Below, piece by piece: positions 19,815 to 48,036 of a DNA stretch of 48,036 nucleotides. The notes under the pieces are model-generated. The model saw only the letters and a program-made list of their open reading frames with translations. It did no database searches and had not been told where the DNA came from. The stretch covers positions 1 to 48,036 of IMG/VR virus record IMGVR_UViG_3300015371_000064. The stretch is one strand, 5' to 3'. The stretch comes from a virus. A program made the translations under genes and the position numbers. Every line of letters begins with the position of its first letter. The stretch's first letter is position 1.

Positions 19815-21461
19815 CTAATGGCGATAACGAGCTACAGGACGATACATTGCAGCCTCGTCCGACTCCATCTTTGCAGCGTTACGGTAGAATGCAGTCCAAT
19901 CCTGGCTTGATTCTAGCTTGTCTGTGAGTGCTTGCTGTGCTTGCACGCGCTTGAACTCAACATTAGCTTCATCAAACAACGATTCGGCAGCATCTACCAA
20001 ATATCTCAGTCCATCTATCGGGTCATCACCTTCAAACTCTGCTATATCTTCGGCAGGTTTGTTGTTTTTCGGCTTATCGTAACTACAAGCCTTAATGGCA
20101 TCAATAAGAATTGGACATGTATTCTCGAAGATTTGGAGTCGTGGTATATTTGTCTCTTGCTCCTGCGGAGCAAATGAATCAATATAGGACTTGTATTCCT
20201 TCATTCCCCTATTTCTCATTATCCAGAGTGCGTACTCCTCAGAGTACGCGCCTATCTCTTGCCGATTTTGAACTTTGGGAGTCCATCGGAGGTATTCGTG
20301 GATGAGCATCTTACCCGTAACTCGTGAGCCAGGAGTGTTCTGCGAGAGTTCAATTTGCGTATCCAGTTCTTCCTCAATTTGCTGTTGAATGGTATGCTCT
20401 TGTCCACGATCTTGACCAGCAGATTTACAGAATCTAATAAATCTTGGATGTTCTTGGTTGATGTAGTGCTTAACTTCGGGTGCCCATGCAGAGATTTTGG
20501 TTTTGACCCAATATTGTTCCCTGTAGATGTAGACTCGTTTAGTAGGCGATACAGCGGCATAACCCACCCACGTCATCGCTCTAAATCCCCAGTCACCAAC
20601 GATGAAACGCGGCCACCATTCAGGAATATTGAATTGAGGAATTACGTGTAATGCGTTATCCGGTTCATCTTCGAACTTATGGTCCCTGAACTCGTCAAAT
20701 ACCTGCCCTTGATATGACTCCCAATCACCGAGTTCTTTCGCTTTCCGTTCCGCTTCAACGGTAATACCCTGAAGTGACTGTTTGTATGTAGGGTCAATGT
20801 GCTTATTGTCCTTAAGAGTTGCGTGAATATAGATTCGCTTATTGCCCCCCTTACCATGAATGATTTTACCGCCCTCCGGAGCAGGCTTAACGAATCTCTT
20901 GTAAGTCCAAGTATGTCCAATTCCTCCCGGCATACCTGCCGCGCGTATGATAGCAGGTAATTCTCTAGTAGGTGAACGTACTCGCTGAAATCCGATGTAG
21001 TTGTAAATCCATTCCGTGTATGACGTGAGTTCGTCCGGCGAGTAGAGATTGATTTGCATCGAGTCATATTTATGAACGTCGTCCTCATTCTCACAATGAC
21101 CCAAGAAAATCATTGCTCCGCCATTAGTAAATCCACTACCAGCTTGGTCGGGACGTGGGAAAGTCCAACACATGTCGGTTTTATTGAAAGTCGCACCGAA
21201 CTTTCGATACAACTCACGGCTTCTTGGAATAATTTCATTACGTAGTTCAGGGAATGTTCTTCGCATGAATACTTGTTTGAACAGAGGATGCTCGTGCCAT
21301 CGATGGACAATTCCATAGAGCAAGAGCACGTCGCTTTTACCCGAACCAGCACCACCTCCATAGAATGCTTCCTTTACTGTAGTTGGAATTGAGAGAAAGA
21401 TTTCCTGTTTTGGCTCAGGCTTCCACTGATTCCGGTCAATTACTGGTGCCTGAGTTTCCAT
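19815..21461 (-). CDS. terL: Terminase large subunit
   Basis: 548 residues from ATG 21461 (METQAPVIDRNQW); a longer frame start would overlap the previous gene and add an unlikely hydrophobic leader. Walker A GGGAGSGKS at residues 35-43; Walker B/catalytic YSPDE with Asp143-Glu144; C-terminal nuclease with IVGDWGF (first Asp) and DDPIDGLRYLV (last acidic pair). This motor pumps DNA into the prohead and cuts it. It starts four bases after the preceding stop, so it is probably translationally coupled. Confidence 0.95.
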   Translation of the reverse strand: METQAPVIDRNQWKPEPKQEIFLSIPTTVKEAFYGGGAGSGKSDVLLLYGIVHRWHEHPLFKQVFMRRTFPELRNEIIPRSRELYRKFGATFNKTDMCWTFPRPDQAGSGFTNGGAMIFLGHCENEDDVHKYDSMQINLYSPDELTSYTEWIYNYIGFQRVRSPTRELPAIIRAAGMPGGIGHTWTYKRFVKPAPEGGKIIHGKGGNKRIYIHATLKDNKHIDPTYKQSLQGITVEAERKAKELGDWESYQGQVFDEFRDHKFEDEPDNALHVIPQFNIPEWWPRFIVGDWGFRAMTWVGYAAVSPTKRVYIYREQYWVKTKISAWAPEVKHYINQEHPRFIRFCKSAGQDRGQEHTIQQQIEEELDTQIELSQNTPGSRVTGKMLIHEYLRWTPKVQNRQEIGAYSEEYALWIMRNRGMKEYKSYIDSFAPQEQETNIPRLQIFENTCPILIDAIKACSYDKPKNNKPAEDIAEFEGDDPIDGLRYLVDAAESLFDEANVEFKRVQAQQALTDKLESSQDWTAFYRNAAKMESDEAAMYRPVARYRH

Positions 21462-21465
21462 TTTA

Positions 21466-21966
21466 TTAGCGACGTGGACCCAGTGAAAGATTAGCAGGAT
21501 TATCCATCCACGACATATCATTACCTGCCGCTGTACCTGCCTGTCTGTATGCTGCCATATCCTGTGGTCCTCTTTGCATGGGTGGTCCCTGCATTCTATT
21601 ACCCATCTGTGGACCTACAGGTACTCCAGGAAATGGTTGACGCTGCATTCCCATTGGATTTTGTGGGGGAGCAGGAATTGGAGGTCTATTCTGTAGTGGT
21701 CCCGGAGGTATTCCTTGCATGGGAGGACGACCCATTCCCTGCATTGGTCCCATACCTTGCATGGGTGGTCCCATTGGAGCATTCATGGGTGGTTGCATAG
21801 GTCCACCCATCGGCATAGGACTCATGTTAGGTGGTGGACCACTTACAGGTGGTGCCATTCCTTGCATAGCACCCGGCGATGGACCTATTCCTCTAACTGG
21901 TTGAGGTCCATTCATTGGTGGTCGTCCTTGCATTGGTTGCATACCACCGATTGGTTGCATTGGCAT
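21466..21966 (-). CDS. Met/Pro/Gly/Gln-rich low-complexity protein
   Basis: 166 residues, over most of its length built of MQGM, PPM and GP units. Only the last 35 residues look more ordered (DMAAYRQAGTAAGNDMSWMDNP). The frame has AGGAG before its ATG and is flanked by real genes with nine and four bases between, so it is coding. Function unknown; probably a disordered linker-type protein acting near TerL. Confidence 0.7.
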   Translation of the reverse strand: MPMQPIGGMQPMQGRPPMNGPQPVRGIGPSPGAMQGMAPPVSGPPPNMSPMPMGGPMQPPMNAPMGPPMQGMGPMQGMGRPPMQGIPPGPLQNRPPIPAPPQNPMGMQRQPFPGVPVGPQMGNRMQGPPMQRGPQDMAAYRQAGTAAGNDMSWMDNPANLSLGPRR

Positions 21967-28459: not shown

Positions 28460-28645
28460 ATGCGTAGATTCTTCTGCTCCATCTGCAAGAAAGTAAAGCG
28501 TGTCCAAAAGTGGCCGAAGAACGTGGAAAACAGGGATTCCGGCGTAGTCACTGAGCGCGTAGGAACCTGTAATCACCACGAGGGTCGCTTTGAACGCGCC
28601 CAACTTGGTAATCGATTCAACCAGACTACTACGGGAGCACGGTAA
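28460..28645 (+). CDS. Zinc-finger microprotein
   Basis: 61 residues, basic. CSIC near the N-terminus and CNHH later could coordinate one zinc. TCCGAAAGGAC sits before the ATG, and the final base overlaps the next start. Not recognised. Confidence 0.6.
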   Translation: MRRFFCSICKKVKRVQKWPKNVENRDSGVVTERVGTCNHHEGRFERAQLGNRFNQTTTGAR

Positions 28646-29316
28646 TGTCTCCACTACTGAAGCAAGTAACAGGTGATTGTGATTGCTGTGATTCGGTCAA
28701 TATCGTAATCACAATGCGGCATGACATGAAGATGTGCGATGACTGTATCGCAAAGGAAGATGCCGTAGTTCCTACCATTCAATCCGTCGATGCGCTGATT
28801 CAACAGTCGCGCAAGATGGACGATGCCATACAGCTGAAGCAAGACGTGTTCAACGCTACCAGCGTCGCGGCAATCGAAATACACGCGGCAATCATGAATG
28901 ACCCATCAATTCCAGATGACCAAAAGGATTTCATGGTCGTAAAGGAATTGTTCCGGCGTCAACAGCATCTTCAGGAAGTGCTGTTTAACGAGCGTCAATC
29001 AATTCTACAGCATGAATCAGAGATGCGTGCGTGGCAAGTCCAGACTCAAGAGTTTGCAGGTAAACTGCGAGCTGAGCTGCGCGCTCAATTCAAGGTAGTC
29101 GATATCAACTATCAGCCAGTTACGCCGAAGTCACCGAAAACTGCTAAGGCTCCCAAGCCATCCACAGGCAGGACCAGACCTAATACAAAGGAAGTCACGG
29201 AAGCAGCCGCGAAGTATGGTGTTGTGGCTTCTATGGTGGCTATGGTCTGCGATACTCGTAAGCTATCGCCTGAAGCAGCAGCGAAGTTTCTCGCAGAGAA
29301 GCTCAACACGAAGTAG
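28645..29316 (+). CDS. Hypothetical protein with zinc motif and long helix
   Basis: 223 residues. CDCC near residue 12 and CDDC near residue 32 form a probable zinc site. A long coiled-coil-like helix (about 60-150) follows, then a Lys/Pro-rich linker and a C-terminal helical pair ending with LSPEAAAKFLAEKL. The position before the SprT-SNF2 gene suggests a DNA-processing partner. Function unknown. Confidence 0.65.
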   Translation: MSPLLKQVTGDCDCCDSVNIVITMRHDMKMCDDCIAKEDAVVPTIQSVDALIQQSRKMDDAIQLKQDVFNATSVAAIEIHAAIMNDPSIPDDQKDFMVVKELFRRQQHLQEVLFNERQSILQHESEMRAWQVQTQEFAGKLRAELRAQFKVVDINYQPVTPKSPKTAKAPKPSTGRTRPNTKEVTEAAAKYGVVASMVAMVCDTRKLSPEAAAKFLAEKLNTK

Positions 29317-29346: not shown

Positions 29347-31419
29347 ATGGATAGACAGGCAGCAGCACAAACGTGCCGGGACGAAATGAATAAGCACGGC
29401 CTGACTAATTGGGGAGTCAGGTTGAATCAGAATGCGGACGCAGGATTTCTCGGTATGTGTATGCATCGGGATAAGGTGATTATCCTGAGTGCTCACCATA
29501 TCGATATCCATCCTGACCCGGATGTAATCAATACCATCCGTCATGAAATCGCTCACGCGCTTACACCCGGTCATTCTCATGATGAAGTGTGGGCTGATAA
29601 GGCACGGGAGATTGGATGCGATAACGTAGCACCATGCTCTAATCTCACGCTAAGCCCTGCAATCATTGACGCAATTCGCTCAGGTGCGGACGTGGAAGTA
29701 ACCTTTACTGAGCAAGTAATCCGCACGCCGAAGTACACCATCACACGGCTTCAGGACAAGTGTGAAATCTGCGGTAAGGTTGCGAAAACAGTCTCCGAGC
29801 AAGTAGTGGAGAATGACGACGACGAGCGGCCTAACCTGAAGATTACGAAACTCGACTGCGGCCATATCGTAATGAAGCGGATTCCAAAAGGAACACCGTT
29901 TCATAAGCTGCACTACGGTGGTGACGACAACTGCCAGCATGCATGGAAGAAGAATGAATGCATGTTGTGTGGACGCTTCAAGCCTTTCGACTTTCAAATC
30001 GATGGCATGAGATTCTTGGAACAAGCTCTCGCAGTCAATAGCGGTGGAGCTATTTTCGACGAGATGGGCCTAGGTAAGACCATACAGGCTAACGGCGTCG
30101 TATACTTCCATCAGGCAGAGCTTACGCCATGCCTGCAGATTGTCAAGTCTGGTATTAAGTATCAGGCTGCGATGGCTCTCATGAACTGGGGAGATGAAAG
30201 TCAGGTTCCTCAGGTAATCAATTCCAGCAAGGATTGGCTTATTCCTGGCCTGAAGCACTACATCATCGGCTACGATATGCTGGTCCCCAAGGTCCGAATG
30301 GTGAAAGGAAAGGAAGTTAAGAGCGGCTTCGATATCACTCAATTCGACCGAGTCGGTATCAAGTGTGTCATCCTTGATGAGTGTCAGCAGATTAAGAACC
30401 CTGATTCCACGCGCACTCAGATGGTGCGTAAGGTATGTAAGGGCAGGAAAGTCATCGCACTATCAGGGACTCCGTGGAAGAACCGTGGTAGCGAATTGTT
30501 CCCTGTCTACAACATGCTTGCGCCTAGCAAGTTCTGGTCATTCGAGGACTTCAAGCGGCGTTGGGTTGATACATACTGGCAGGGAAACATCTTGAAAGAA
30601 GGCGGTATCAAGCGTATCGCTCAATTCAAGGAATACACGAAGGACATCTCTATCCGGCGTGAAAGGACGGAAGTTATGTCAGAACTCCCACTAGTCAATA
30701 GGACTAAGCTCTACGTGCAGATGAGCCAGCTTGAAGAAGAACTCTACGATGAGGCTGTCGATGAATTCGTCAAGTGGTATGAAACTGAAGTAGAGAACAT
30801 GTCAGGCATCGCAATCATCGCAGCCATGCAGAAGATGCGGCATCTAGTGGCGCAAGCTAAGGTGCCAGCTACGATGGACTACATGGACGACTTCGTAGCG
30901 GAGACTGACCGTAAGATGGTTATCTTCGCTCATCATAAGGACGTTCAACAGTTCCTTTACGATGACTGCGTGGCTCGTTACAGCTCAGAGATTCCAGTGT
31001 TCAAGCTCACGTCAGAAATGGGTGGGCAGGCACGTTACGAAACTCAGGAAGCCTTTAACAAGGCTCCGCGTGCAATCCTTGTAGCGTCACAGCTCGCAGC
31101 CGGAGAGGGTTTGAATCTTCAGACCTGCGCTGATTGCATCATGCATGAGCGTCAGTGGAATCCAGGTAATGAGGAGCAGGCTGAGGGACGGTTTATCCGT
31201 ATCGGTCAGACTGCTGCTTCAGTAAATGCTGTTTACGCTCATTTGACCGGGTTGACTACAATCGACCCGCAGCTTGATGCAATCGTTGAGCGTAAGCGTC
31301 ATCAGTTCTACGCGGCGATGAGTAATGGTGAGACTCCACGATGGAGTGAAGATTCCATCATGAAGGAACTGGCCGAGACTATCGTGCGCGCTCACAAACA
31401 GAAGAAAGCGGCAGCATAA
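29347..31419 (+). CDS. SprT-like metalloprotease / SNF2 helicase fusion
   Basis: 690 residues. Residues about 1-100 form a SprT-type domain: HEIAH at 66-70 plus His76/78, preceded by the strand VIILSAHHIDIHPDPDVI. A cysteine-rich linker follows (CEICG at 139-142, C171, C196, CMLCG at 205-208). Residues about 215 onward are an SNF2 translocase: Walker A DEMGLGKT (238-245), motif II DECQ (344-347), SGTP (373-376), and late motifs QWNPGNEEQAEGRFIRIGQ. The fusion suggests a translocase that pulls on DNA-bound proteins or cross-links and a protease that cuts them, as Spartan does. TCCGAAAGGAC ribosome box. Confidence 0.9.
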   Translation: MDRQAAAQTCRDEMNKHGLTNWGVRLNQNADAGFLGMCMHRDKVIILSAHHIDIHPDPDVINTIRHEIAHALTPGHSHDEVWADKAREIGCDNVAPCSNLTLSPAIIDAIRSGADVEVTFTEQVIRTPKYTITRLQDKCEICGKVAKTVSEQVVENDDDERPNLKITKLDCGHIVMKRIPKGTPFHKLHYGGDDNCQHAWKKNECMLCGRFKPFDFQIDGMRFLEQALAVNSGGAIFDEMGLGKTIQANGVVYFHQAELTPCLQIVKSGIKYQAAMALMNWGDESQVPQVINSSKDWLIPGLKHYIIGYDMLVPKVRMVKGKEVKSGFDITQFDRVGIKCVILDECQQIKNPDSTRTQMVRKVCKGRKVIALSGTPWKNRGSELFPVYNMLAPSKFWSFEDFKRRWVDTYWQGNILKEGGIKRIAQFKEYTKDISIRRERTEVMSELPLVNRTKLYVQMSQLEEELYDEAVDEFVKWYETEVENMSGIAIIAAMQKMRHLVAQAKVPATMDYMDDFVAETDRKMVIFAHHKDVQQFLYDDCVARYSSEIPVFKLTSEMGGQARYETQEAFNKAPRAILVASQLAAGEGLNLQTCADCIMHERQWNPGNEEQAEGRFIRIGQTAASVNAVYAHLTGLTTIDPQLDAIVERKRHQFYAAMSNGETPRWSEDSIMKELAETIVRAHKQKKAAA

Positions 31420-34492: not shown

Positions 34493-35461
34493 ATGGAACT
34501 ACCAGAAGTTGATGAACTAATTGGGAAGAAGAACGTCATACTAGATGCGACATCACTCTCATCACTGATGGGATGTGGTCGCTACTACGACTTGCGTATG
34601 AATCATCGGTTCGTATCCTCACGAGGTAAGTCAAACTCGTTAGAGGTAGGACTGTTGATTCATAAGGTGTTTGAGGTATTTTACAAGCACCTAATCAACG
34701 GTTTTCCGAGAAGTACCGCCATCGGCAACGCACTTACGATGGGCCAGCTATTCATTACTGGCTGTCCATACTGTGCTAATCACACAGGCGATGGACCACC
34801 AGCCTGTAAACATGAACCTGAAGAATATCCAGGCATGCAGAACACACCTGAAAAGTCTGAGAAGTGGACAGTTGGATGGAAGTTCGCTCTCGACACCTGC
34901 GAGCAGTACTTCGCTCACTACAAGAATGATGCATTCATTCCTCTCGCTGCTGAGACTGTTCGTGGTGAGATTCTCTACGAGGATGATGAAATCCGCATCT
35001 TGTGGAAAGCGAAGATGGACCTAATCATCGATACGAACCAAATCGGTATCATATCGATGGACCATAAGTCCTTCAAACAGCGGCGCGATAAGACTACACT
35101 GAGCAATCAGTTCATGGGTCAGTGCTGTCTGCTGAAGTCTCGTAATGTCCTAGTCAACAAGATAGGATTGCAGACTACGCTGAAGATAGAGGAACGGCTT
35201 ACCAGAGAGATGGTTTCATTCTCTGCTAACCGCCTTGAAGAATGGAAGGCGACTACACTTCCATACTACGCCTACAAGTTCATCGAGTACAAGGAGACTG
35301 GATACTGGCCTCCGAATTACGCGCACTGTGACAATATGTTTGGCGCGTGCATGTTCAAAGACGTGTGCGAAGCAGATACGAACATGCGTGAGGAAGTACT
35401 CAGGCTCAACTTCAACTTGGCTCCTAAGTGGGATCCTGTCAACAAAGATGGGGATGAATAG
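34493..35461 (+). CDS. Cas4/RecB-like PD-(D/E)XK nuclease
   Basis: 322 residues. Conserved positions: Cys28, His57, Asp176 (KMDLII), Asp190-x-Lys192 (MDHK), Gln206/210, and a C-terminal cysteine set C279, C286, C292 that with C28 can hold a 4Fe-4S cluster as in Cas4/AddB. An additional CPYC...CKH insertion at 91-107 may bind zinc. Sits just before the recombinase genes, so DNA-end processing for recombination is likely. Confidence 0.85.
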   Translation: MELPEVDELIGKKNVILDATSLSSLMGCGRYYDLRMNHRFVSSRGKSNSLEVGLLIHKVFEVFYKHLINGFPRSTAIGNALTMGQLFITGCPYCANHTGDGPPACKHEPEEYPGMQNTPEKSEKWTVGWKFALDTCEQYFAHYKNDAFIPLAAETVRGEILYEDDEIRILWKAKMDLIIDTNQIGIISMDHKSFKQRRDKTTLSNQFMGQCCLLKSRNVLVNKIGLQTTLKIEERLTREMVSFSANRLEEWKATTLPYYAYKFIEYKETGYWPPNYAHCDNMFGACMFKDVCEADTNMREEVLRLNFNLAPKWDPVNKDGDE

Positions 35462-35983: not shown

Positions 35984-36802
35984 ATGCCGAACATGAATGA
36001 CGTGGACTTCGATTCGCTCTACTGCATGTTTAAGGGAGAGCCAGGTACACGTAAGTCTACTCAGGCTCTATCATTCCCTGGACCTCAGTATTGGTTTTCA
36101 TGGGATAGGAAGATGAATGGTATCTATCTACCCATGAAGAAGTGGGGAGTAGACCCTAAGACAATACAGTTCGATGACTATGATGATTGGAACAAGGCCA
36201 AGAAGAAGCTGGAACTGTTTCAGTCACAATGCCCATTCAAGACACTAGTGTTCGATAGCTTGACTTCATGCGCGGACATGACTCTCAGACAAACCGTAAA
36301 GCTTAAATACGGTTTAACTAGACAATCAGGCGCAGCGGCAGGTAAGTTGATTGCAGGTATAGCAGTCAACGAGATTGAGGACTATAATGCAGAGTCAGCA
36401 GCTCTGCAAGAACTCATCGCGCTCACGAAAGATATCAGCGCGTATCACAAAGTCAACATCATTCTGATTGCTCACGTCGTTCAGGCTGAGTATCGGAATA
36501 CAGCAACGAATACTACCCACATCAGTCGCACAATCGTGACTGCGGGTAAAAAAGTGGCTCCCAAAATCCCTGCCTATTGTGGTGAAGTCTATCACTTCAA
36601 TATCAAGAAGGGATTTGTTGAAGGACAAGGAGGTGACTATTCACTACTGACTGAGCACACTGGTGATGACTTCGCAAGAACTGCACTTGGACTACCGAAG
36701 GAAATTGTGTTCGGTGACAAGCAACTTTACGACACTTGGATTAAGCCTGCAATCGCAGAGCTGAAGAAAGAGTCAACTCCCGTAACTAAGTTTGGCTCTT
36801 AG
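35984..36802 (+). CDS. Sak4-like RecA-fold recombinase/ATPase
   Basis: 272 residues. Walker A GEPGTRKST (18-26) and Walker B TLVFDS (Asp91) on a RecA-like core, with NIILIAHVVQAEYRN in the sensor region. Fits the AAA_24/Sak4 family of phage single-strand annealing ATPases. Next to an SSB-like gene and downstream of a Cas4-like nuclease, it forms a recombination unit. Starts directly after the preceding stop. Confidence 0.85.
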   Translation: MPNMNDVDFDSLYCMFKGEPGTRKSTQALSFPGPQYWFSWDRKMNGIYLPMKKWGVDPKTIQFDDYDDWNKAKKKLELFQSQCPFKTLVFDSLTSCADMTLRQTVKLKYGLTRQSGAAAGKLIAGIAVNEIEDYNAESAALQELIALTKDISAYHKVNIILIAHVVQAEYRNTATNTTHISRTIVTAGKKVAPKIPAYCGEVYHFNIKKGFVEGQGGDYSLLTEHTGDDFARTALGLPKEIVFGDKQLYDTWIKPAIAELKKESTPVTKFGS

Positions 36803-38303: not shown

Positions 38304-38443
38304 AACACGCATTCTGGGTCAAGCTCGCTGGACAACCTCCAGAGAGGTGGGTAATAACTAATTTCGAGCAGTTCTGGCATGAACTTCGTGAATACATGAT
38401 GCGGAATCATCGTCTACATCTGGAGTGGATTATCCGTGACTGA
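38300..38443 (+). CDS. Small hypothetical protein
   Basis: 47 residues, Trp/His-rich (MKHAFWVKLAGQPPERWVI...). AGGTGG before the ATG; overlaps both neighbours. Unknown. Confidence 0.55.
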   Translation: MKHAFWVKLAGQPPERWVITNFEQFWHELREYMMRNHRLHLEWIIRD

Positions 38444-41000
38444 AAAAATATACGTCCCCGGTGGAGGTAATCGTGGGGCGAAACTGATGATTCTAGGTGA
38501 AGCGCCATCATATGAGGAAGTGATGGCGCGTAAGCCATTTGTTGGTCCTTCAGGGAGAGAACTTGACAGACTCCTCAGTGATGCAGGCATTCCGCGAGGG
38601 GAGTGTTGGATATCCAATGTCTGTAAATATCAGGTTCCTCCCAATGTTGGGAAAAAGAAAGTTCCCTTTCACGAGCGCGCAAGGAGCGTTGGCATTGATA
38701 TTGACCAACAACTTGCCGAACTACAAGTTGAAATCAATGACCTCAAGCCGAACTGTATACTTGCTCTGGGTGGGACTGCTCTGTGGGCGCTTAGAGGAAA
38801 GGGAAAAATCACGCAGTTCCGTGGCTCCATCCTCAAAGGTATGGGTACGAAGTTTGTACCTACCTATCATCCAGCGCACTTGCTACATACAGCTGCGGGT
38901 GGAGAAATCAAGGGATATTTCAATCGTCAAATAATGGTGTTTGACTTCAGGAGAGCTTGGGAAGAACGGTTAGACCCCGCACTTAACCTACCTACTCGTA
39001 ACATCCAAATCTGCCGCAACTCAGGTGAACTCTATCACTTCCTGAATACCTACAAGGACTGCAATAAAGTCTCTGTAGACATTGAGGCAGGTGGTCATTG
39101 TCTCCCTATCTGCATCGGACTTGCATTCAGTAAGTCTCATGCGATGACGGTACCACTCTGGAATAAGGGTGGTATCAGTGATATTCCCGACTCGGACCTA
39201 GCTACCCTCTGGAAGATGCTAACCATCACTTTGTGGGAGAAGAACATTGTCGGACAAAACTTCAACTACGACCGCGATAAGATCCGTAGACTGGGGTTCG
39301 CCATCAGGGGAATATACCGTGATACGATGCTCAAGGCATTCGCAATTAACCCTGAACTCCCTAAAGGGCTCGCATTTCTTACAAGTATCTACACCCGAGA
39401 ACCCTTCTATAAAGATGAAGGTATGTATGAAGGGAGCATTAGAGATTTACTGCTCGGATGTGGGCGTGACGCTTGTGTCACGTATGAAATAGAAGAAGCG
39501 ATGGAGCCGGACCTAGATGAACTAGGTGTAAGGAAGTTCTACGAGAACTTTCTGATGAAGCTCCCCGACTTCTATAAGGAGATTGAGAACAACGGATTCC
39601 ATATCGACAATGCAAAGCGAATGGAGTTGGTGAAGAAGTACATCGAATGGGATGAGAGACTAGGCTATGAGATGTTTCAGATAGCCGGTATCGATGTGAA
39701 TGTAGGTTCTCCCGTGCAGGTATACAGTTTCCTATTTGACTATTGGAAGCTACCTCGGCGTGATGGTGTAGGTGAGGAAGAACTAACTGCACTTCTGAAT
39801 CTAAAGCATGGAGTAAAGAACGATGACCAAAGACTCTGGATTGAAAAGTGTCTAGAGCGACGACGAGTTAAGAAAACTATCAGCACGTATCTATTTGCAA
39901 TCCCAGATTACGACGGAAAGATGCGTACAACTTGCTTCATGTGTCTCGAAACTGGCAGAACTAGTACAGGGCAGCAAGACCCTCCCATTAGACCCAAAGT
40001 CGATATCGGAGGAAAAGGACTAAAGAAAGATATGAAGGTAATGGGCACGGCCTTTCAGGTATTCACTAAGCATGGTGATATTGGTGCTGATGTGCGTGGT
40101 ATGTATATCCCTGCTGAGGGTGAAGTACTCGTACAGCTCGATAGTTCGCAGGCAGAAGCGCGTGTAGTTTTCAACCTGGCTACAGACGAGCAGGCACTAA
40201 AGGACATAGACGAACATGATTACCATGCTCTTACTGCTTCTTGGTTCTTCGGTGGTACTGAATCTGATTACTCTAAGAAAGTACTGGGATATGAAAGCCC
40301 GATACGCTTTGCTGGTAAGACTCTCCGCCACGCAGGACATCTCATGGCCGGAAAAAGGAGAGCATCAACTGAGCTTAATACTCAGGCAAGAAAGTTTAAG
40401 ATTCCAATCAAAATTGACGAAGCTACCGCCGAACGAGCACTAAAGATATTCCACGCTAGACAGCCCAAAATCCAGCAGGTCTTTCATGCTGGTGTCATTG
40501 AGTGCATCAAGAATACCCGTCAACTAGTAGCACCGCTACCCTGGGGGATAGATGCTGAGAGAGGTGGTGTACGTATCTTTTATGAGAGATGGGGAGATGA
40601 CCTATTCAGGGAAGCAATGGCCTATCTTCCACAACGAGCTGTTACTGATAATACCAAAGCCGCTGGCCTCCGAATTAAAAGAAAGTTCCGAGAGGCGAAG
40701 ATTATTCTTGAAGCTCACGATGCGTTACTTTTTGCCATTCGACGTGATTGCTTGGAAGATTTCATTCCAATAGCAAAGAAGGAGATGGAACGTCCAATCA
40801 ACTTTACTGCGTGTTCACTACCACGGAGATTCCTGAAGATTCCATGTGAGGTAGAAGTAGGTGAGAACTATAAGGACTTACGGAAGTTCAAGGGGAGAGA
40901 TGAACCTGTCAAGATAGAGACTGTGGAGCCGGTCAACATAAGAGCACTTACACCAACAGAAAGGTTTATGGTGACAGATGGAGCTGAAGGATATAATTGA
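38436..41000 (+). CDS. UDG-domain / family A DNA polymerase fusion
   Basis: 854 residues from GTG, GGAG upstream. Residues 1-170: uracil-DNA-glycosylase-like (GEAPS at 21-25, YHPAHLL at 144-150). Residues about 205-360: 3'-5' exonuclease with Asp215/Glu217, Asn275/Asp279 and Asp345; the Tyr of ExoIII is replaced. Residues about 480 onward: polymerase with motif A DSSQAEAR (569), motif B R624...K628 with HAGHLM, and motif C HDA (761-763). The last acidic residue of motif C is Ala instead of Glu, and motif B lacks the usual aromatic at the Tyr766 position. UDG-polymerase fusion is known from SPO1-type phage enzymes. Replicative polymerase. Confidence 0.9.
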   Translation: MTEKIYVPGGGNRGAKLMILGEAPSYEEVMARKPFVGPSGRELDRLLSDAGIPRGECWISNVCKYQVPPNVGKKKVPFHERARSVGIDIDQQLAELQVEINDLKPNCILALGGTALWALRGKGKITQFRGSILKGMGTKFVPTYHPAHLLHTAAGGEIKGYFNRQIMVFDFRRAWEERLDPALNLPTRNIQICRNSGELYHFLNTYKDCNKVSVDIEAGGHCLPICIGLAFSKSHAMTVPLWNKGGISDIPDSDLATLWKMLTITLWEKNIVGQNFNYDRDKIRRLGFAIRGIYRDTMLKAFAINPELPKGLAFLTSIYTREPFYKDEGMYEGSIRDLLLGCGRDACVTYEIEEAMEPDLDELGVRKFYENFLMKLPDFYKEIENNGFHIDNAKRMELVKKYIEWDERLGYEMFQIAGIDVNVGSPVQVYSFLFDYWKLPRRDGVGEEELTALLNLKHGVKNDDQRLWIEKCLERRRVKKTISTYLFAIPDYDGKMRTTCFMCLETGRTSTGQQDPPIRPKVDIGGKGLKKDMKVMGTAFQVFTKHGDIGADVRGMYIPAEGEVLVQLDSSQAEARVVFNLATDEQALKDIDEHDYHALTASWFFGGTESDYSKKVLGYESPIRFAGKTLRHAGHLMAGKRRASTELNTQARKFKIPIKIDEATAERALKIFHARQPKIQQVFHAGVIECIKNTRQLVAPLPWGIDAERGGVRIFYERWGDDLFREAMAYLPQRAVTDNTKAAGLRIKRKFREAKIILEAHDALLFAIRRDCLEDFIPIAKKEMERPINFTACSLPRRFLKIPCEVEVGENYKDLRKFKGRDEPVKIETVEPVNIRALTPTERFMVTDGAEGYN

Positions 41001-41409
41001 AAGGATGAAGGAAAGAACCATTAACCTTACAGGATGCTGGGAGTTTCAAGGAGCTGCTCCCAAGGGATATGGAATGGTACGCTTCAATGGTAAAATGAGA
41101 AGCGTGCATAGACTTTCAGCAGCATATTATCTTGGATTGAACTTGGATGACAAGTCTCAACAGGCTAATCACAATGCTGCATGTACTCACAAGAACTGTT
41201 GGAATCCCGACCATCTCTACGTAGGAACTGAAGTTGAGAATAAAAGAGATAGAAAACTAAAGGGAGAAGAACATAAAGGTAATCAGTATACTAATGCGAC
41301 TCACTGTGTTAATGGACATGAGTTCACACCTGAGAATACTTATCAGTATGGTTCTGGTCAACGAAGATGCAAACAGTGCTACAAAGATAGATATGACAGG
41401 TCACACTAA
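40978..41409 (+). CDS. HNH homing endonuclease
   Basis: 143 residues if started at 40978 (23-base overlap with the polymerase gene) or from ATG 41005. HNH_3-type: GCWEFQGAAPKGYGMVRF, His44, ANHNAACTHKNCWNPDHLYVG with His65 and His79; C-terminal CxxC pairs (CVNGH, CKQC) suggest an additional zinc finger. Such free-standing enzymes spread next to polymerase genes. Confidence 0.85.
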   Translation: MELKDIIERMKERTINLTGCWEFQGAAPKGYGMVRFNGKMRSVHRLSAAYYLGLNLDDKSQQANHNAACTHKNCWNPDHLYVGTEVENKRDRKLKGEEHKGNQYTNATHCVNGHEFTPENTYQYGSGQRRCKQCYKDRYDRSH

Positions 41410-42695
41410 TGGCAACATGGCTAGACAAATTACTAGCTCAACACTCGGAATTAGAAAGCCCCATGAACTTCTGGCTTTGGGGAGGAATCAGTGCTATCAG
41501 TGCTGTGCTGAAGGACAATGTCTGGTTGCACAGACAAATACATAATCTGTATCCCAACATCTACGTGATGTTTCATGCTGAGTCAGGACTGAAAAAAGGC
41601 CCCCCAGTCAGTATGGCTAAGCAGTTGGTATCCGCAGTTGGTGGGACACAGATTATAACAGGGCGTAGCTCTATCCAGGGTATCCTGAAAGAAATGGGTA
41701 CTGCTGAGACTAAGCCGGGTGGTAAGATAATCAGCAAGTCTACCATCTTCATCTGCTCATCGGAATTGACTAGTTCAATCGTGAGTGACCCTGTAGCGAT
41801 GGACATTCTGACTGACCTGTATGACCGACAGTATAACGTGGGTCAGTGGAGGTCACTACTGAAGATGGAGCAGTTCAATCTGGATAAACCGACTATCTCA
41901 ATGCTAACTGCAACGAACGACGCGCACTCTAATGACTTCTTCAGTAAGAAAGACCTGCATGGAGGATTCTTCGCTAGGACATTCGTTATATCGGAGAGTA
42001 GACGGAATAGAGCCAACTCCCTGCTGGTACCGCTGGTCAATGCGCCGAACTATCCTGATATGGCGGAGTATCTGAAGGAACTAGGTAAGTTGAAGGGACC
42101 GTTTCAACCATTAGCTGAGCGCGAACAAGTCGATGGCTACAAGATACCTCACAAAGACCCTGCTACAGGAGAGACACACTATTACACCGAAGCTGGTATA
42201 CTCTATCAGCTATGGTATGAGGAGTTTAGTGAGGACTTACAATACCAGGAGATTAAGGATGAAACAGGTACTCTGAATAGGTTTGGGGACTCAGTTCTGA
42301 AGGTGGCGATGATACTGTCCCTAGCTAGATCGCCAGAACTATACATCGATGAGGAGTCGATGCAGCTAGCTATTGACTACTGCAAGCGGCTGGTGGGTAA
42401 TATCAGGGAATTAACTTACGGGCAGAAAGGAATGTCAGACTCTAGTTCCTTGAAAGCAGCTATCATTAAGGAACTGGTTACGAGGGATACGCACTCTATC
42501 AGTAGGCCGATGTTGCTCAAGAAGATGTGGGCACACTACAAGGAAGCACATGAACTAGACGAGATAATGCTCTCATTCGACCAGGCTGGTATGATTAACA
42601 CTCAATCAGTGGGGAATCAGATTATGTATTCGATGGCCGATAATACTGTGCGTGAGTTCAAACTAGCATGGGCTAGAGGTGAGAAGAACCGATGA
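41409..42695 (+). CDS. DUF3987-type helicase/primase-like protein
   Basis: 428 residues, ATG overlapping the HNH stop. The N-terminal P-loop-like ESGLKKGPPVSMAKQL lacks the normal GKS/T, a trait seen in DUF3987-type replication proteins. The mid-region has TIFICSSELTSSIVSD and later helical lids. Beside the polymerase, it is probably the replicative helicase-like or primase-associated protein. Confidence 0.7.
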   Translation: MATWLDKLLAQHSELESPMNFWLWGGISAISAVLKDNVWLHRQIHNLYPNIYVMFHAESGLKKGPPVSMAKQLVSAVGGTQIITGRSSIQGILKEMGTAETKPGGKIISKSTIFICSSELTSSIVSDPVAMDILTDLYDRQYNVGQWRSLLKMEQFNLDKPTISMLTATNDAHSNDFFSKKDLHGGFFARTFVISESRRNRANSLLVPLVNAPNYPDMAEYLKELGKLKGPFQPLAEREQVDGYKIPHKDPATGETHYYTEAGILYQLWYEEFSEDLQYQEIKDETGTLNRFGDSVLKVAMILSLARSPELYIDEESMQLAIDYCKRLVGNIRELTYGQKGMSDSSSLKAAIIKELVTRDTHSISRPMLLKKMWAHYKEAHELDEIMLSFDQAGMINTQSVGNQIMYSMADNTVREFKLAWARGEKNR

Positions 42696-42919
42696 TTATC
42701 CCCAGACCAACTTACACTGAGCCTGCCCCATCCGATACACCTAATGGAGTGACGGAAGGACAGGCTGAAAGAATCAGACAGTACATGGACTGTGAGAACT
42801 GGACTTGCCTCAAATGTGGAGCAGTCATGTTTGGACGAATGAAGTATTGTGTCTACTGTAAGTTCAAACTTAACGTCCTTGTCCTGAGAGGTCAAACGGA
42901 ATGGGTGACAGACTCCTGA
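42692..42919 (+). CDS. Zinc-ribbon protein ending the early operon
   Basis: 75 residues; CLKCG and CVYC form a zinc ribbon. Its last 50 bases overlap the end of the convergent giant late gene. TGATG coupling to the upstream gene. Unknown function. Confidence 0.7.
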   Translation: MIIPRPTYTEPAPSDTPNGVTEGQAERIRQYMDCENWTCLKCGAVMFGRMKYCVYCKFKLNVLVLRGQTEWVTDS

Positions 42920-45900
42920 GTCCCTCACCACCTTCCAGCAACCAGTCACTATGCTTAGGAATGAACTTTGCTATCGACTCACCCTTCTCGTAAGTCTGCG
43001 TGCCCATTCCAAACAGTGCAGGGAATCCCAACGGAAGTAGTGCCGGATCTTCCTTACCAAGAGAGTACATATCTTGAAGGAATAGTGGGATGAACATCTG
43101 CATCGTCCTATCTCCCACATGGAATGGATTGTATTCTGATGCAAATGCTACGTCGTAAGCATACTTGAATACAGGATTTAGTTTGTTAGCCATGAACCTC
43201 TGACCATACTCACCCTGAGTTGGTCCCTGGAATCCCTCACCGAATGTGTGATACTCGCCAGTTGATGATGAGGTGTATCCTCCCTGTATTGCTCTCGCCG
43301 CAGCTACGATGAACTGTTGGAATCCACCACCGGGGTCCAAGCGCGTGTTACCAATCTTAATCTTACCGAAGTCTGCATTCAGGATGTCCGTACCAATTTC
43401 AACGTCATCAGGTGCGGCCATCTTCGCTAGTAATGCAACTGCCCACCATGCAGCGGCGGCTCCAAGTGCTGACCGCAGATATTCCTTCCTTACCTGAGGT
43501 GTAGCCATGATGTAGGTGGAAGGATTGAGCATCCTGATTCGTGATGCCATCAGTCCAGGTGAGAATAGGACTCTCCCTAATCCCCTTCCGTAACTCTCAA
43601 GATTGAGTTCAAATGCCTTATGTGGTAGAAGGTGAGTCTTGAGTGGTGCGTGTCCGGTAGCAGTATTCACATAGTCTGCAATCTCCTTAGCTAGTACCAT
43701 ATTATGGAAGGGATTCAAGTCCCTTGCCTCATTCGCAGTCATCTTAGTTCTCCAGGGCATTACTCCCTGTCTAACACTACCTGTATTCAATGCTTCAAGT
43801 GACATATCCCTTGCGCGGTTGAGTAGAAACTCAGTTCGATTAGCATTCAAGTGATTAAGGAAAGTGATGAATGCCCTATTGGACATTCTGATAGGAACAC
43901 CTGCCGTGTTTGCCCACATCCATCGTGGAACATTGGGTATACCTGCTAGTTTCTCAGGTCCGAGGAATCCACCAGTTTCAATCCACCTACTAGCTGTAGC
44001 TTCAGCGCGTGGACCAGCCTTACTCGCAGGTGCGAATAGCTTCATTCCAATCTGTTCACCAAATGACTTACCTTCCTTACCTGTAACAGGGTCAATAGGA
44101 CGAACAAACATCCACTTACTTCTCAAGTCTGCATCAATCTTATTGAACCCTGCCTCACTAAAACCACCAGGGAACATCATAGCAGCAGCTTTCCAGAATT
44201 GTGGAGTAAGAAACATTGATAGTCCTTGTCTACCCGGAGCAGACAAGTCGAATGTAGTAGTTAGCGCACTTGGTAATGATAGTGCTTCATCTACGAATCT
44301 AACTTCATCCTTTTTCCTATTAGCGGGTCTACTTACTCCCTGCCCTATTCCTGTGGAACGCTTGAATCGTTTCCAGAGGGAAGTAGTTCCAACTCCAGAT
44401 CCTGTAGTATTACCAGGAACAGGCCCCGCTCCTCCGGATTGGGTATTTGCTGACTTAATTCCCGTTGGTGTGAGAGCGTCCTCCGTAGTAGCTCTACGCC
44501 CCCGTGAGCTAGAATAGACTTGTAGAAGTCTCGTAATCTCTGGACTGTAGCCCCCAGAGAGTTTTCCTCCTGTGAAGATCCGTTGTATCCTGTCGGTGGC
44601 AGCGAAGGTCCGTTGTACGCCATAAGCTGAAATTATCCTTCCTAGTCTGTTCAAGTAATCCGCGTCGTGTCCAGCATCGGGATTACGGGTATATCTATCC
44701 ATCTGCTTCATGTAGGCGATTGTAAGTCCACTCAGTCGAGGGTCATTCAAGTCCTCATGAGTCCATGTAAGACCCTTCGTCATAGGCTCATGGCCTACGT
44801 GTGCAACCTCATGCAACATGGTCATTACGGTGTCCCATGCTGCATCTCTTGGAATCTGACGATTGATATCAATGTATGGATTGAGTCCGATTAACATCTT
44901 CGTAGTGATGGGGTCACGTATTCTAATGCCGTGACTAGTCTTGTCAAGAACGAGTCCGACGCCTTGAACTCTTTCCTCCCAATCACTCATTTCACTTGTT
45001 TGCAGAATCTCATCTACTATTTGGTCAAATATTTGAATCATAGCATGAGTGCTAGGACTGTCTAACATTAGACTTCGTTCATCTGGAGTGAGTCTATCTC
45101 CTGGGTCGAAGAATACTGGATTACGTACCGCCTTTCCAATGAACTTAAATGGAGCCATAGCTGCTTGGAACAGCCTATGTAGCGTGGCATCATTTTGTGG
45201 CTGCCCCGCTTGTTGATTAGCAGAGAACTCTATTCCACCTTTCATTACTCTCTGGGCTGCCCTCTCATACTTAGCCCTAGCTAGAGCATAGAGTCTCCAT
45301 GCTTTAGAGGCTTCCGTATTGAACTGTCTATTCATGCCCTGACTTTGATGAGCTAAGGAAGCTACATCCTCATATTCCTCCAGCATTCGATTACGATTTT
45401 CCGCAATCTTACCTAAATCTGTCTCTCCATGAAGGTCTAGAGCCTTCTGTAATGCAGTAGGGAACTCTCGACTTATTTCTTCTAAAAGAGTATCAGGGTC
45501 AGTTTCAAGGTCTCTATTAGCTTCTGCTCGTATCCGCTCTGCTGTCTCAATATCACCTGCCGTTTCAGCATCATCAGCTAAGTTCATTGCTTCTTGATAT
45601 GAAGTTGGATGACTGAAATCAGCTATTTGTCCTCTTGGTCCCTTAGTTGGGAACTCGTCGGAACTGCGCTCAATACTACGAGACTTCAGTACTCGGATGA
45701 TAGCATTCACCCGTTCATAGATATCACGGGGACTGTGGTCTCTGTCAATAGTGATGTGTCTTGATGGACCTCTACCACGCTGTGACATTTCAATGGTTAG
45801 AGAGTCCTGACCCATCTCAGATAGTGCTCTAGCTATTACATTAGCCTGAGTTGGAGTGATAGTTCCTTGTACTTCTGCACCCTGCCAGTTCTCAGCAACA

Positions 45901-48036
45901 CGGACTACTCCCATGTGCATGACTGTATCAAGGTCTAGCCCGATATCATCGAGTCCTTCTCTATGAGACTTACCTCCATGATGAAGTCTGGTACCATCAG
46001 GCTGAATGAAGTGAGTTTCACCCCATGTTCTAGCCTCTCGTAGTCCCTTCTTCATCTTGTCCATAGTCTCAGCAACTTCCTTCTGAGAAGGAGGCTGCAT
46101 TCTTCTATGATCTTCATCATAGAGGATACTGAATAGACGTTGTACTCTAGGATTATCTTGGTCAGTGACTCGTGACAAATCACTCATCTCATTGTAGATT
46201 TGATTATCGGTCATCCCCTTTACACGTTCCTTGAATCTGTTAATATATTCTTCCTCATCCTTAGTCATCTTAGTATCATTGACTGCTTTCTTAATATTGT
46301 ATAGTTCTTCTAGTGCCTGCTCTCTGGAAGTGAATCCTTCCAGAACAGGTCTACCATCTGCATGAATATCCCAGGTTCTCTCCTTACCCCGTTGGACTAC
46401 TTCAATCTTCTTAGCACCTTCAAAGTCTCCAACCTCCCAATCCTTACTAAACTGAGGTTCATGACTAATTTCAGGATTGAGCATCCGTTGTGCTGTACGC
46501 TCGTACTTAGCTTGAGCCAGGCTCCTGAGTCTATCAGTTTTATTGAAATTATAACTGATTTCTGGAGATACTGGAGCATTGGGATTCCTACCATATTGAT
46601 CTCGTGCTCCATAATATGCACCCCGTGCTCTTTCATACTCAGCTTGAGTACGAGCAAAATTCTCGACTATTCTCTTGGGGTCTTGTTCATTATAAATAGC
46701 ACGAGCCTCATCTAGTATACTTGAAAAATGTAATTCAATCTCCCGCATTGCTTCTTCAGGAGCTGTTTCAGTATCTTGATTAATCATCTGTCTGGTTGAT
46801 GGATTGGTAACTTCTCTACCAGCAGTTCCACCTTCAGATGGAGGTGCAAAGTTTTCTCCCCAACTTCTACTAGTAGCTACTCCCTCATCAGGCTGGAATG
46901 CTAGACTGGGTATAGCCTCATCTCCAGTTCTACGCATATGGTATGCTTCAGGTCTTTCACTCCACTGTATTCTTCGTGGAGGATTTAGTCTATTAAGTAT
47001 CCTGATTATAGCCAGATTGGGGTCAGACTCCTCATCTGAATGACGTTGTATTCCGAAGTCATTCATATTAGGAGGACCACCAAAGTCAAATGCCTGCTGC
47101 GTAGGTTCTGGACCCATACGCGCTCGTTCTTCAGCTTGTCTCTGCTGTTGAGCGAATATCTGTCGCTCCCTGAGTGCGCGTAGGTCAGCGTCAAACTCTC
47201 TCGGGTCTACCTGTGGTCCTACTTCCATCCCAACTAGGTTGCCCTGCTCTACGTTAGGCTGAGCAGTTCCGGTGAATGCACCCATTCGTCGAACATGGAT
47301 GATTCGTTCCCTGAGTGCGTAGATTATCTTCCGATAAGCATCGATTTCAGCCGTATTATTAGGTTCATTAGCCTGAGCCCACATGAAGTTTCTAACTGAG
47401 TTATCCAGTGATGTAGTGAGACTATTCAAGTCATCTGCTTGACTTATGAGATTCATCAAGTTATCGAAATGGGGTAGAATATGTCCCATTCCGGGTGTCT
47501 CATCAGCATTCTGCTCCACATCCTCAAATGGAGCTGCTGGTCTACCAAACTTAGTAGTATTAGCATCTTGAGAGACTATTACGAATCCCTCATCCTTCAT
47601 TCGCTGAGCTAGTTGTGGTGAGACATTCCGAGTAGGATAGTCTCTAGTCTGCCCAAATGCACCCATCGGTTCAGTCTGAACTGGCTCAGTCTGTACTGGT
47701 TCAGTTGATTGAACTGGTGCAGTAGGACGCTCTGATGCAGGCCGTCTGTAAGGATGATTGAATATCTCCTGAACTGAGGACCAACGAAGTCTAGTTCTCC
47801 GCTGGTAGTCATGTGGAGTTTCATCCTCAAAAGGAACAAGTTCCTGTATTCCTGTTGTAGGTCTTTCTCCTCCTGCTGGTTGAACTGGTAATGGAGTACC
47901 AGCAGAGTCAGTTGGAGGCTGAAGTGGCTCAGCCTGAGACATAGGAACTGGGCCACCCATAGTGGGGAATGAACCAGTACCATAATCTACATCAGGCGGC
48001 TGAGAGCCTGGAAATGTCTGTGGAGTAGCTGGTGGA
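42870..48036 (-). CDS. Giant polyvalent ejection protein, main part
   Basis: C-terminal part of the 2,105-residue protein that begins at 1274. It resembles the large polyvalent proteins that phages eject with their DNA. Visible parts: Pro/Gln linkers with TEPVQ repeats; two related helical segments ending in AKYERTAQRML (about residue 890) and AKYERAAQRVM (about 1306); a central region containing HHGGKSHREGLDDIG; a zincin motif HEVAHVGH with the first His at residue 1459; and a C-terminal domain (about 1750-2100) with a hydrophobic Ala/Trp segment near 1905 that could be a membrane helix. The 3' end overlaps the convergent gene ending at 42919 by 50 bases. Role inferred from size, architecture and position; no enzymatic activity is proven by sequence. 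Confidence 0.85.
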   Translation of the reverse strand, partial: PPATPQTFPGSQPPDVDYGTGSFPTMGGPVPMSQAEPLQPPTDSAGTPLPVQPAGGERPTTGIQELVPFEDETPHDYQRRTRLRWSSVQEIFNHPYRRPASERPTAPVQSTEPVQTEPVQTEPMGAFGQTRDYPTRNVSPQLAQRMKDEGFVIVSQDANTTKFGRPAAPFEDVEQNADETPGMGHILPHFDNLMNLISQADDLNSLTTSLDNSVRNFMWAQANEPNNTAEIDAYRKIIYALRERIIHVRRMGAFTGTAQPNVEQGNLVGMEVGPQVDPREFDADLRALRERQIFAQQQRQAEERARMGPEPTQQAFDFGGPPNMNDFGIQRHSDEESDPNLAIIRILNRLNPPRRIQWSERPEAYHMRRTGDEAIPSLAFQPDEGVATSRSWGENFAPPSEGGTAGREVTNPSTRQMINQDTETAPEEAMREIELHFSSILDEARAIYNEQDPKRIVENFARTQAEYERARGAYYGARDQYGRNPNAPVSPEISYNFNKTDRLRSLAQAKYERTAQRMLNPEISHEPQFSKDWEVGDFEGAKKIEVVQRGKERTWDIHADGRPVLEGFTSREQALEELYNIKKAVNDTKMTKDEEEYINRFKERVKGMTDNQIYNEMSDLSRVTDQDNPRVQRLFSILYDEDHRRMQPPSQKEVAETMDKMKKGLREARTWGETHFIQPDGTRLHHGGKSHREGLDDIGLDLDTVMHMGVVRVAENWQGAEVQGTITPTQANVIARALSEMGQDSLTIEMSQRGRGPSRHITIDRDHSPRDIYERVNAIIRVLKSRSIERSSDEFPTKGPRGQIADFSHPTSYQEAMNLADDAETAGDIETAERIRAEANRDLETDPDTLLEEISREFPTALQKALDLHGETDLGKIAENRNRMLEEYEDVASLAHQSQGMNRQFNTEASKAWRLYALARAKYERAAQRVMKGGIEFSANQQAGQPQNDATLHRLFQAAMAPFKFIGKAVRNPVFFDPGDRLTPDERSLMLDSPSTHAMIQIFDQIVDEILQTSEMSDWEERVQGVGLVLDKTSHGIRIRDPITTKMLIGLNPYIDINRQIPRDAAWDTVMTMLHEVAHVGHEPMTKGLTWTHEDLNDPRLSGLTIAYMKQMDRYTRNPDAGHDADYLNRLGRIISAYGVQRTFAATDRIQRIFTGGKLSGGYSPEITRLLQVYSSSRGRRATTEDALTPTGIKSANTQSGGAGPVPGNTTGSGVGTTSLWKRFKRSTGIGQGVSRPANRKKDEVRFVDEALSLPSALTTTFDLSAPGRQGLSMFLTPQFWKAAAMMFPGGFSEAGFNKIDADLRSKWMFVRPIDPVTGKEGKSFGEQIGMKLFAPASKAGPRAEATASRWIETGGFLGPEKLAGIPNVPRWMWANTAGVPIRMSNRAFITFLNHLNANRTEFLLNRARDMSLEALNTGSVRQGVMPWRTKMTANEARDLNPFHNMVLAKEIADYVNTATGHAPLKTHLLPHKAFELNLESYGRGLGRVLFSPGLMASRIRMLNPSTYIMATPQVRKEYLRSALGAAAAWWAVALLAKMAAPDDVEIGTDILNADFGKIKIGNTRLDPGGGFQQFIVAAARAIQGGYTSSSTGEYHTFGEGFQGPTQGEYGQRFMANKLNPVFKYAYDVAFASEYNPFHVGDRTMQMFIPLFLQDMYSLGKEDPALLPLGFPALFGMGTQTYEKGESIAKFIPKHSDWLLEGGEGLRSLSPIPFDLSGQGR
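47914..48036. repeat. Terminal direct repeat, right copy (assembly circularisation)
   Basis: Exact copy of bases 1..123. Removing it gives a unit genome of 47,913 bp. Confidence 0.95.

Follow-up and report, generated by a model that had tools for sequence, protein, structure and literature searches.

Can a single phage gene supply both a protease and the DNA-tracking motor that would feed it, and if so, what would such an enzyme be for? DNA-protein-crosslink proteases have been studied mostly in eukaryotes, where separate proteins unfold and cut. The question is raised by a gene encoding 690 residues at positions 29347-31419 of the window, the whole 48,036-base IMG/VR virus record analysed here. 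Its phage origin follows from the nature of the record and from the presence of a large terminase gene (19815-21521). A first-pass annotation had read the protein as an N-terminal HEIAH zincin, a multi-cysteine linker, and a complete SNF2 motor, together forming a self-contained machine for removing proteins from DNA; absence of a SprT fold, or loss of HExxH in homologues, was to count against it. All features of the fusion and its cassette lie on the plus strand.

Domain architecture

The gene starts with ATG and has no internal stop. Pfam places a SprT-like domain (PF10263) at residues 25-91 with 27.7 bits, just over the cut-off of 25.6, followed by SNF2-rel_dom (PF00176) at 216-476 (97.3 bits) and Helicase_C (PF00271) at 513-620 (46.5 bits). 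PHROGs agrees with this layout at higher scores, with phrog_1006, phrog_3768, phrog_6445, and phrog_10840 over residues 1-100 and the DNA helicase family phrog_62 over residues 210-674. The first four are labelled "unknown function", yet proteins annotated as SprT-like proteases in cultivated phages match them. A chance or mis-called reading frame is ruled out by dozens of contigs that encode homologues along the whole length of the protein, at 50-71% identity. As judged from sequence, one phage open reading frame combines a SprT-like zinc protease domain, two Cys/His clusters of zinc-binding type, and an intact SNF2 motor.

The SprT-like zincin domain spans residues 1-97 (29347-29637). When the N-terminal 131 residues were modelled alone with AF2 from 53 relatives, the SprT fold that the annotation depended on was predicted with a pLDDT of 90.3. 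VIA-align ranked human SPRTN (6mdx) first, with Z 11.2 and an rmsd of 2.1 Å over 99 residues at 16% identity; Wss1 scored Z ∼7.4. Foldseek matches include minigluzincins, SPRTN, and Wss1, and a sequence profile of the domain also picks up minigluzincins and SPRTN, weakly.

The HEIAH catalytic motif occupies residues 66-70 (29542-29556). The 84 complete fused sequences agree without exception at H66, E67, H70, and W82, so that HExxH is retained in every homologue that has the domain. H78 and W82 form an HxxxW element (29578-29592) that is invariant in 53 representatives, as are W22, H66, E67, A69, H70, A86, and G90. The SprT-like/SPRTN family pattern, HExxH with a third His and then an aromatic residue, is present together with the fold, and by this pattern H78 is the third zinc ligand. 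The domain would be expected to bind metal and cleave protein. A linker at residues ∼97-128, modelled at low confidence, separates it from the first zinc cluster; the linker carries the motif IDAIRSGA (residues 107-114, 29665-29688; D108-G113 conserved at ≥90%), with a helix at residues 104-111 in predicted models.

Zinc-ribbon-like cluster 1 (C139, C142, C171, and H173; 29761-29865) is present in every one of the 84 fused sequences, and cluster 2 (C196, H198, C205, and C208; 29932-29970) in all 83 with letters there. Both are also retained in homologues without SprT. Cluster 1 occupies the position of the ribbon in stand-alone SprTs, yet is also found in these SprT-less homologues. Because the clusters and motor persist where SprT has been dropped, the multi-Cys region appears to be tied to the motor no less than to the protease.

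The N-terminal ATPase lobe of the motor (residues 216-476, 29992-30774) contains the Walker A motif GLGKT (residues 241-245, 30067-30081), the Walker B or motif II sequence DECQ (residues 344-347, 30376-30387), and SGTP (residues 373-376). The Helicase_C lobe spans residues 513-620 (30883-31206), and motif VI, QAEGRFIRIGQ, residues 611-621 (31177-31209). G241-K244, D344, E345, Q347, Q611, and the arginines R615 and R618 are kept in all 84 fused sequences, and motifs I, II, III, V, and VI lie in two RecA-like lobes, as in SNF2 family SF2 ATPases. Among solved structures, the Sulfolobus SNF2 core 1z63 is nearest in sequence (E 7e-26). A full-length model (mean pLDDT 78.9, pTM 0.54) matches ISW1 and the Sulfolobus SNF2 core, with modest TM-scores and uncertain lobe placement. 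The zincin and complete motor of the first-pass annotation are thus borne out; its linker has the cysteines claimed and resolves into two conserved clusters.

Selection, gain, and loss of the protease

Pattern scans of IMG/VR returned 28 and then 351 relatives, so the same architecture, which the annotation had proposed to seek in other phages, exists there in hundreds of relatives. The best 80 are nearly all full-length fusions at 50-71% identity. Among fused sequences, mean pairwise identity is 61% for SprT and 57% for the motor, and the identities of the two parts correlate (r = 0.76). Median dN/dS is ∼0.10 for SprT and ∼0.08 for SNF2, values that come from 8-9 usable close pairs, some with shared members and several with high dS, and that are supportive rather than precise. 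Both the SprT domain and the motor appear to be under purifying selection.

Relatives lacking SprT begin just upstream of zinc cluster 1 (L020/L021, L023, L024/L027, L132, L134, L135, L147, L157, L158, L160, L170, and L178). Whole-record PF10263 searches found no substitute SprT on the records of these relatives, six of which are 44-47 kb, although virus records may be incomplete. A six-frame profile search of the loci likewise found no separate SprT gene, except for a decaying remnant in L124 (5758-7611), in which the N-terminal helix and strands are recognisable, the active-site helices are deleted, and the motor is intact.

On the motor tree, presence and absence of SprT takes 10 changes, at least 7 of them forced by well-supported branches. 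On the SprT tree, which also included 47 cellular SprTs and 40 stand-alone ones from phages, the 50 fused domains form a single clade apart from them (99% SH-aLRT); this tree has only 95 columns, and many inner forks are unresolved. Independent fusions are unsupported, because every fused SprT domain falls in one clade. The simplest reading is a single fusion that was probably followed by repeated protease loss; re-gain of SprT by recombination inside the clade is possible.

These losses undercut the first-pass annotation where it implied that a self-contained machine is a necessity, as relatives have repeatedly lost the protease and their records contain no SprT in its stead. Because the zinc clusters and motor stay, the motor is best regarded as the core and the protease as a real, active-looking accessory, an optional addition to a motor that several lineages keep without SprT.

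The same pattern could be taken further. The SNF2 part alone might be the functional unit, a translocase that remodels forks or anneals DNA within the replication module, with SprT a tolerated marginal add-on; retention of the motor and zinc clusters in relatives that repeatedly lost SprT and the catalytically dead remnant in L124 are both consistent with this. However, a marginal domain would gather active-site changes, none of which is seen in the 84 fused sequences, and selection on SprT is about as strong as on the motor. We consider this reading improbable.

A replication cassette around the fusion

The fusion is the first gene of a rightward gene set conserved over 32 compared loci. Downstream are a PD-(D/E)XK nuclease (34493-35461; PF12705, phrog_1218 exonuclease) and a Sak4-like ssDNA annealing ATPase (35984-36802; PF13479, phrog_124), each in 30 of the 32 loci, as is a 147-aa protein of the cassette. 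Further on lie a uracil-DNA glycosylase (UDG) fused to a family A DNA polymerase (38436-41000; PF03167 and PF00476) and a primase/helicase-like protein (41409-42695; phrog_14296 DNA primase, DUF3987), both beyond the reach of many fetched flanks, which were too short. The gene set headed by the fusion is a replication and recombination cassette, and a site at its head fits a role in removing proteins from DNA. The upstream neighbour (28645-29316), a 223-aa protein with N-terminal CxxC pairs and no family match, occurs in 26 of the 32 loci and is a possible functional partner.

The UDG-polymerase is a second repair-enzyme fusion within the cassette. Its N-terminal domain is family-4-like (PF03167, E 1e-19), with GEAPS and HPAHLL motifs in most relatives. 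Two ideas about this domain were considered and set aside. The glycosylase could make abasic sites whose crosslinks the fusion clears; this link lacks co-occurrence support, because the UDG domain is also found in SprT-less relatives. UdgX-like suicide crosslinking was rejected as well, the candidate His not being conserved. Megablast found no cultivated-phage match to the neighbourhood of the fusion. An open reading frame of 1696 aa on the minus strand (42870-47960 of the window) matches nothing in Pfam or PHROGs and has no equivalent in the flanks compared.

The cassette bears on a different view of the substrate, in which the targets of SprT are DNA-bound proteins of the host, from its nucleoid, repair, or defence systems, and the motor delivers the protease to DNA, making the fusion a host-takeover or counter-defence enzyme. 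The patchy retention of the protease, with at least 7 changes, is what would be expected of a host-dependent trait. Jumbo-phage SprTs have been proposed to cut host proteins (PMC7824862), and overexpression of a stand-alone mycobacteriophage SprT, LHTSCC gp83, is bactericidal and causes filamentation (PMC7474061). However, gp83 is a different protein without a motor attached, and the SprT of phage Adephagia was scored as non-toxic (PMC11373665). The fusion, moreover, sits in a conserved replication cassette, and its SprT is permanently tethered to the motor and conserved to the same degree, unlike fast-evolving arms-race genes. Action on host proteins therefore seems unlikely, though a serious competitor.

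Proposed mechanism

In eukaryotes, SPRTN is paired in trans with an unfolding helicase (FANCJ) or an AAA+ unfoldase (p97). FANCJ translocates into the crosslinked protein, which it unfolds and thereby exposes to cleavage by SPRTN; in vitro, SPRTN needs FANCJ for this unfolding prior to cleavage (PMC12279946). The zinc-binding domain of SPRTN binds ssDNA (PMC12279946).

We put at about an even chance that the phage fusion is a replication-associated, ATP-driven enzyme that clears roadblocks or DNA-protein crosslinks; its activity, DNA dependence, translocation, and substrate are what we infer. The SNF2 motor would bind duplex DNA and track along it, as expected from its family, while the two zinc modules may engage DNA. 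On meeting a tightly bound or covalently attached protein, the motor would displace or partly unfold the obstacle and present it to the tethered SprT zincin for cutting. Once the obstacle was cleared, the phage polymerase and Sak4-type recombination could proceed. Fusion in cis would substitute for the eukaryotic pairing in trans.

Several lines of evidence support such a clearing role: the architecture, the SprT fold match, the kept catalytic and ATPase residues, purifying selection, the single clade, and the position in the cassette. Against it, the protease is dispensable, being absent from many relatives with no substitute SprT on their records; the fusion shows none of the recognisable tethers of eukaryotic crosslink proteases, and published opinion on phage SprTs leans towards host-protein targets. 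Repeated loss fits a conditional benefit, whether the protease clears replicating DNA or acts on host proteins. A more specific proposal is plausible though rather less probable than not: that the fusion is a single-polypeptide, ATP-driven DNA-protein-crosslink protease in which the motor pulls or unfolds crosslinked proteins into the tethered SprT, dispensing with ubiquitin and with any separate unfoldase. It would be a counterpart, in viruses of prokaryotes, of FANCJ plus SPRTN that was fused once and then became optional in a large phage clade.

If both activities are real, this compact 690-aa enzyme would offer a simple system for studying how a translocating motor delivers proteins on DNA to a protease, and would be evidence that phages must clear proteins off replicating DNA. 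The natural relatives without SprT are built-in controls for the contribution of the protease.

Distribution beyond IMG/VR

None of 50,697 cultivated-phage records matches as much as 80% of the fusion. A total of 776 such records match it; the matches listed align to the motor, with identities of about 29% at most. The SprT domain alone matches ∼1,000 phage records, which, where named, are mostly SprT-like proteases. A pattern-based scan of 84,980 cellular species, which distant cases may escape, gave no confirmed relative of the full-length fusion. A motif scan of the best 80 cellular SprT loci, subject to the same caveat, found no in-frame helicase-type Walker A. An open frame in an Aenigmarchaeum MAG (L258) has a Walker A segment of SF2-helicase type upstream of a SprT domain, in frame; it may be a gene remnant or an assembly artefact.

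Two stand-alone SprT genes of Klebsiella phages (L042, 4950-5489, and L186, 2393-2971) are annotated "DNA helicase" in GenBank. A second fusion there was rejected, the genes having just 180-193 codons, and PHROGs matches of the protein from L042, the T4-like phage phi1_146010, are only SprT-type and unnamed. This gene lies directly after topoisomerase II genes and before rIIA/rIIB, a neighbourhood that is suggestive because topoisomerases form covalent complexes with DNA. In mycobacteriophage Eaglepride (L187, 2462-2926), two DNA methylase genes immediately follow the SprT gene.

Comparison with known systems

Every part of the fusion belongs to a known family. No earlier description of a SprT-SNF2 phage fusion was found in the open literature searched, and within that scope this combination is apparently undescribed.

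Each half has simpler relatives. Stand-alone phage SprTs (phrog_1006, 3768, 6445, and 10840), such as Streptomyces phage Jada gp238 and mycobacteriophage Eaglepride gp83, share a homologous domain, mostly at 33-47% identity, and are ∼150-180 aa long, without a motor. SSO1653-type and phage SNF2 helicases (1z63, phrog_62, and the Rhodothermus phage RM378 helicase) share the motor motifs and fold, without a SprT match; motors of cultivated phages reach at most ∼29% identity among the matches listed. Defence SNF2 proteins (ZorD, DpdE, and DrmD) give PADLOC matches to the motor only, and NCBIfam scores of these families on the fusion are far under cut-off. No Zorya, DISARM, or Dpd partner genes were recognised among the scanned neighbours, of which the recognisable ones serve replication and recombination, and PADLOC found nothing in either flanking gene. 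The motor matches mirror the shared SNF2 fold.

A zincin and an SNF2 ATPase in one polypeptide are already known from phage polyvalent proteins (DarB-like), in which a zincin metallopeptidase (MPTase) accompanies a SWI2/SNF2 ATPase and has been proposed to act in self-processing (PMC5512222). By analogy, SprT might cleave the fusion itself, splitting the protease from the motor or tuning its activity, and the low-confidence linker ahead of zinc cluster 1 would suit such a cut. However, both peptidase clade and architecture differ. Polyvalent MPTases combine HExxH with a Glu ligand and show no specific kinship to earlier MPTase clades (PMC5512222), whereas the fusion has the invariant H78 and SPRTN as its best structure match. 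Polyvalent proteins are large, with DNA methylase, ART, ParB, or other effector domains; the fusion has only SprT, SNF2, and Helicase_C in its 690 aa and belongs to a replication cassette. Autocleavage strikes us as a long shot.

The closest functional parallel may be the eukaryotic crosslink proteases. SPRTN and Wss1 share with the fusion a zincin fold, HExxH with a third His, and perhaps the Cys/His zinc-binding region after the protease. The fusion has no recognisable ubiquitin, SUMO, or replisome-tether module such as these enzymes carry; in place of their ubiquitin, SUMO, PCNA, and p97 tethers, the phage protein has a covalently joined SNF2 motor.
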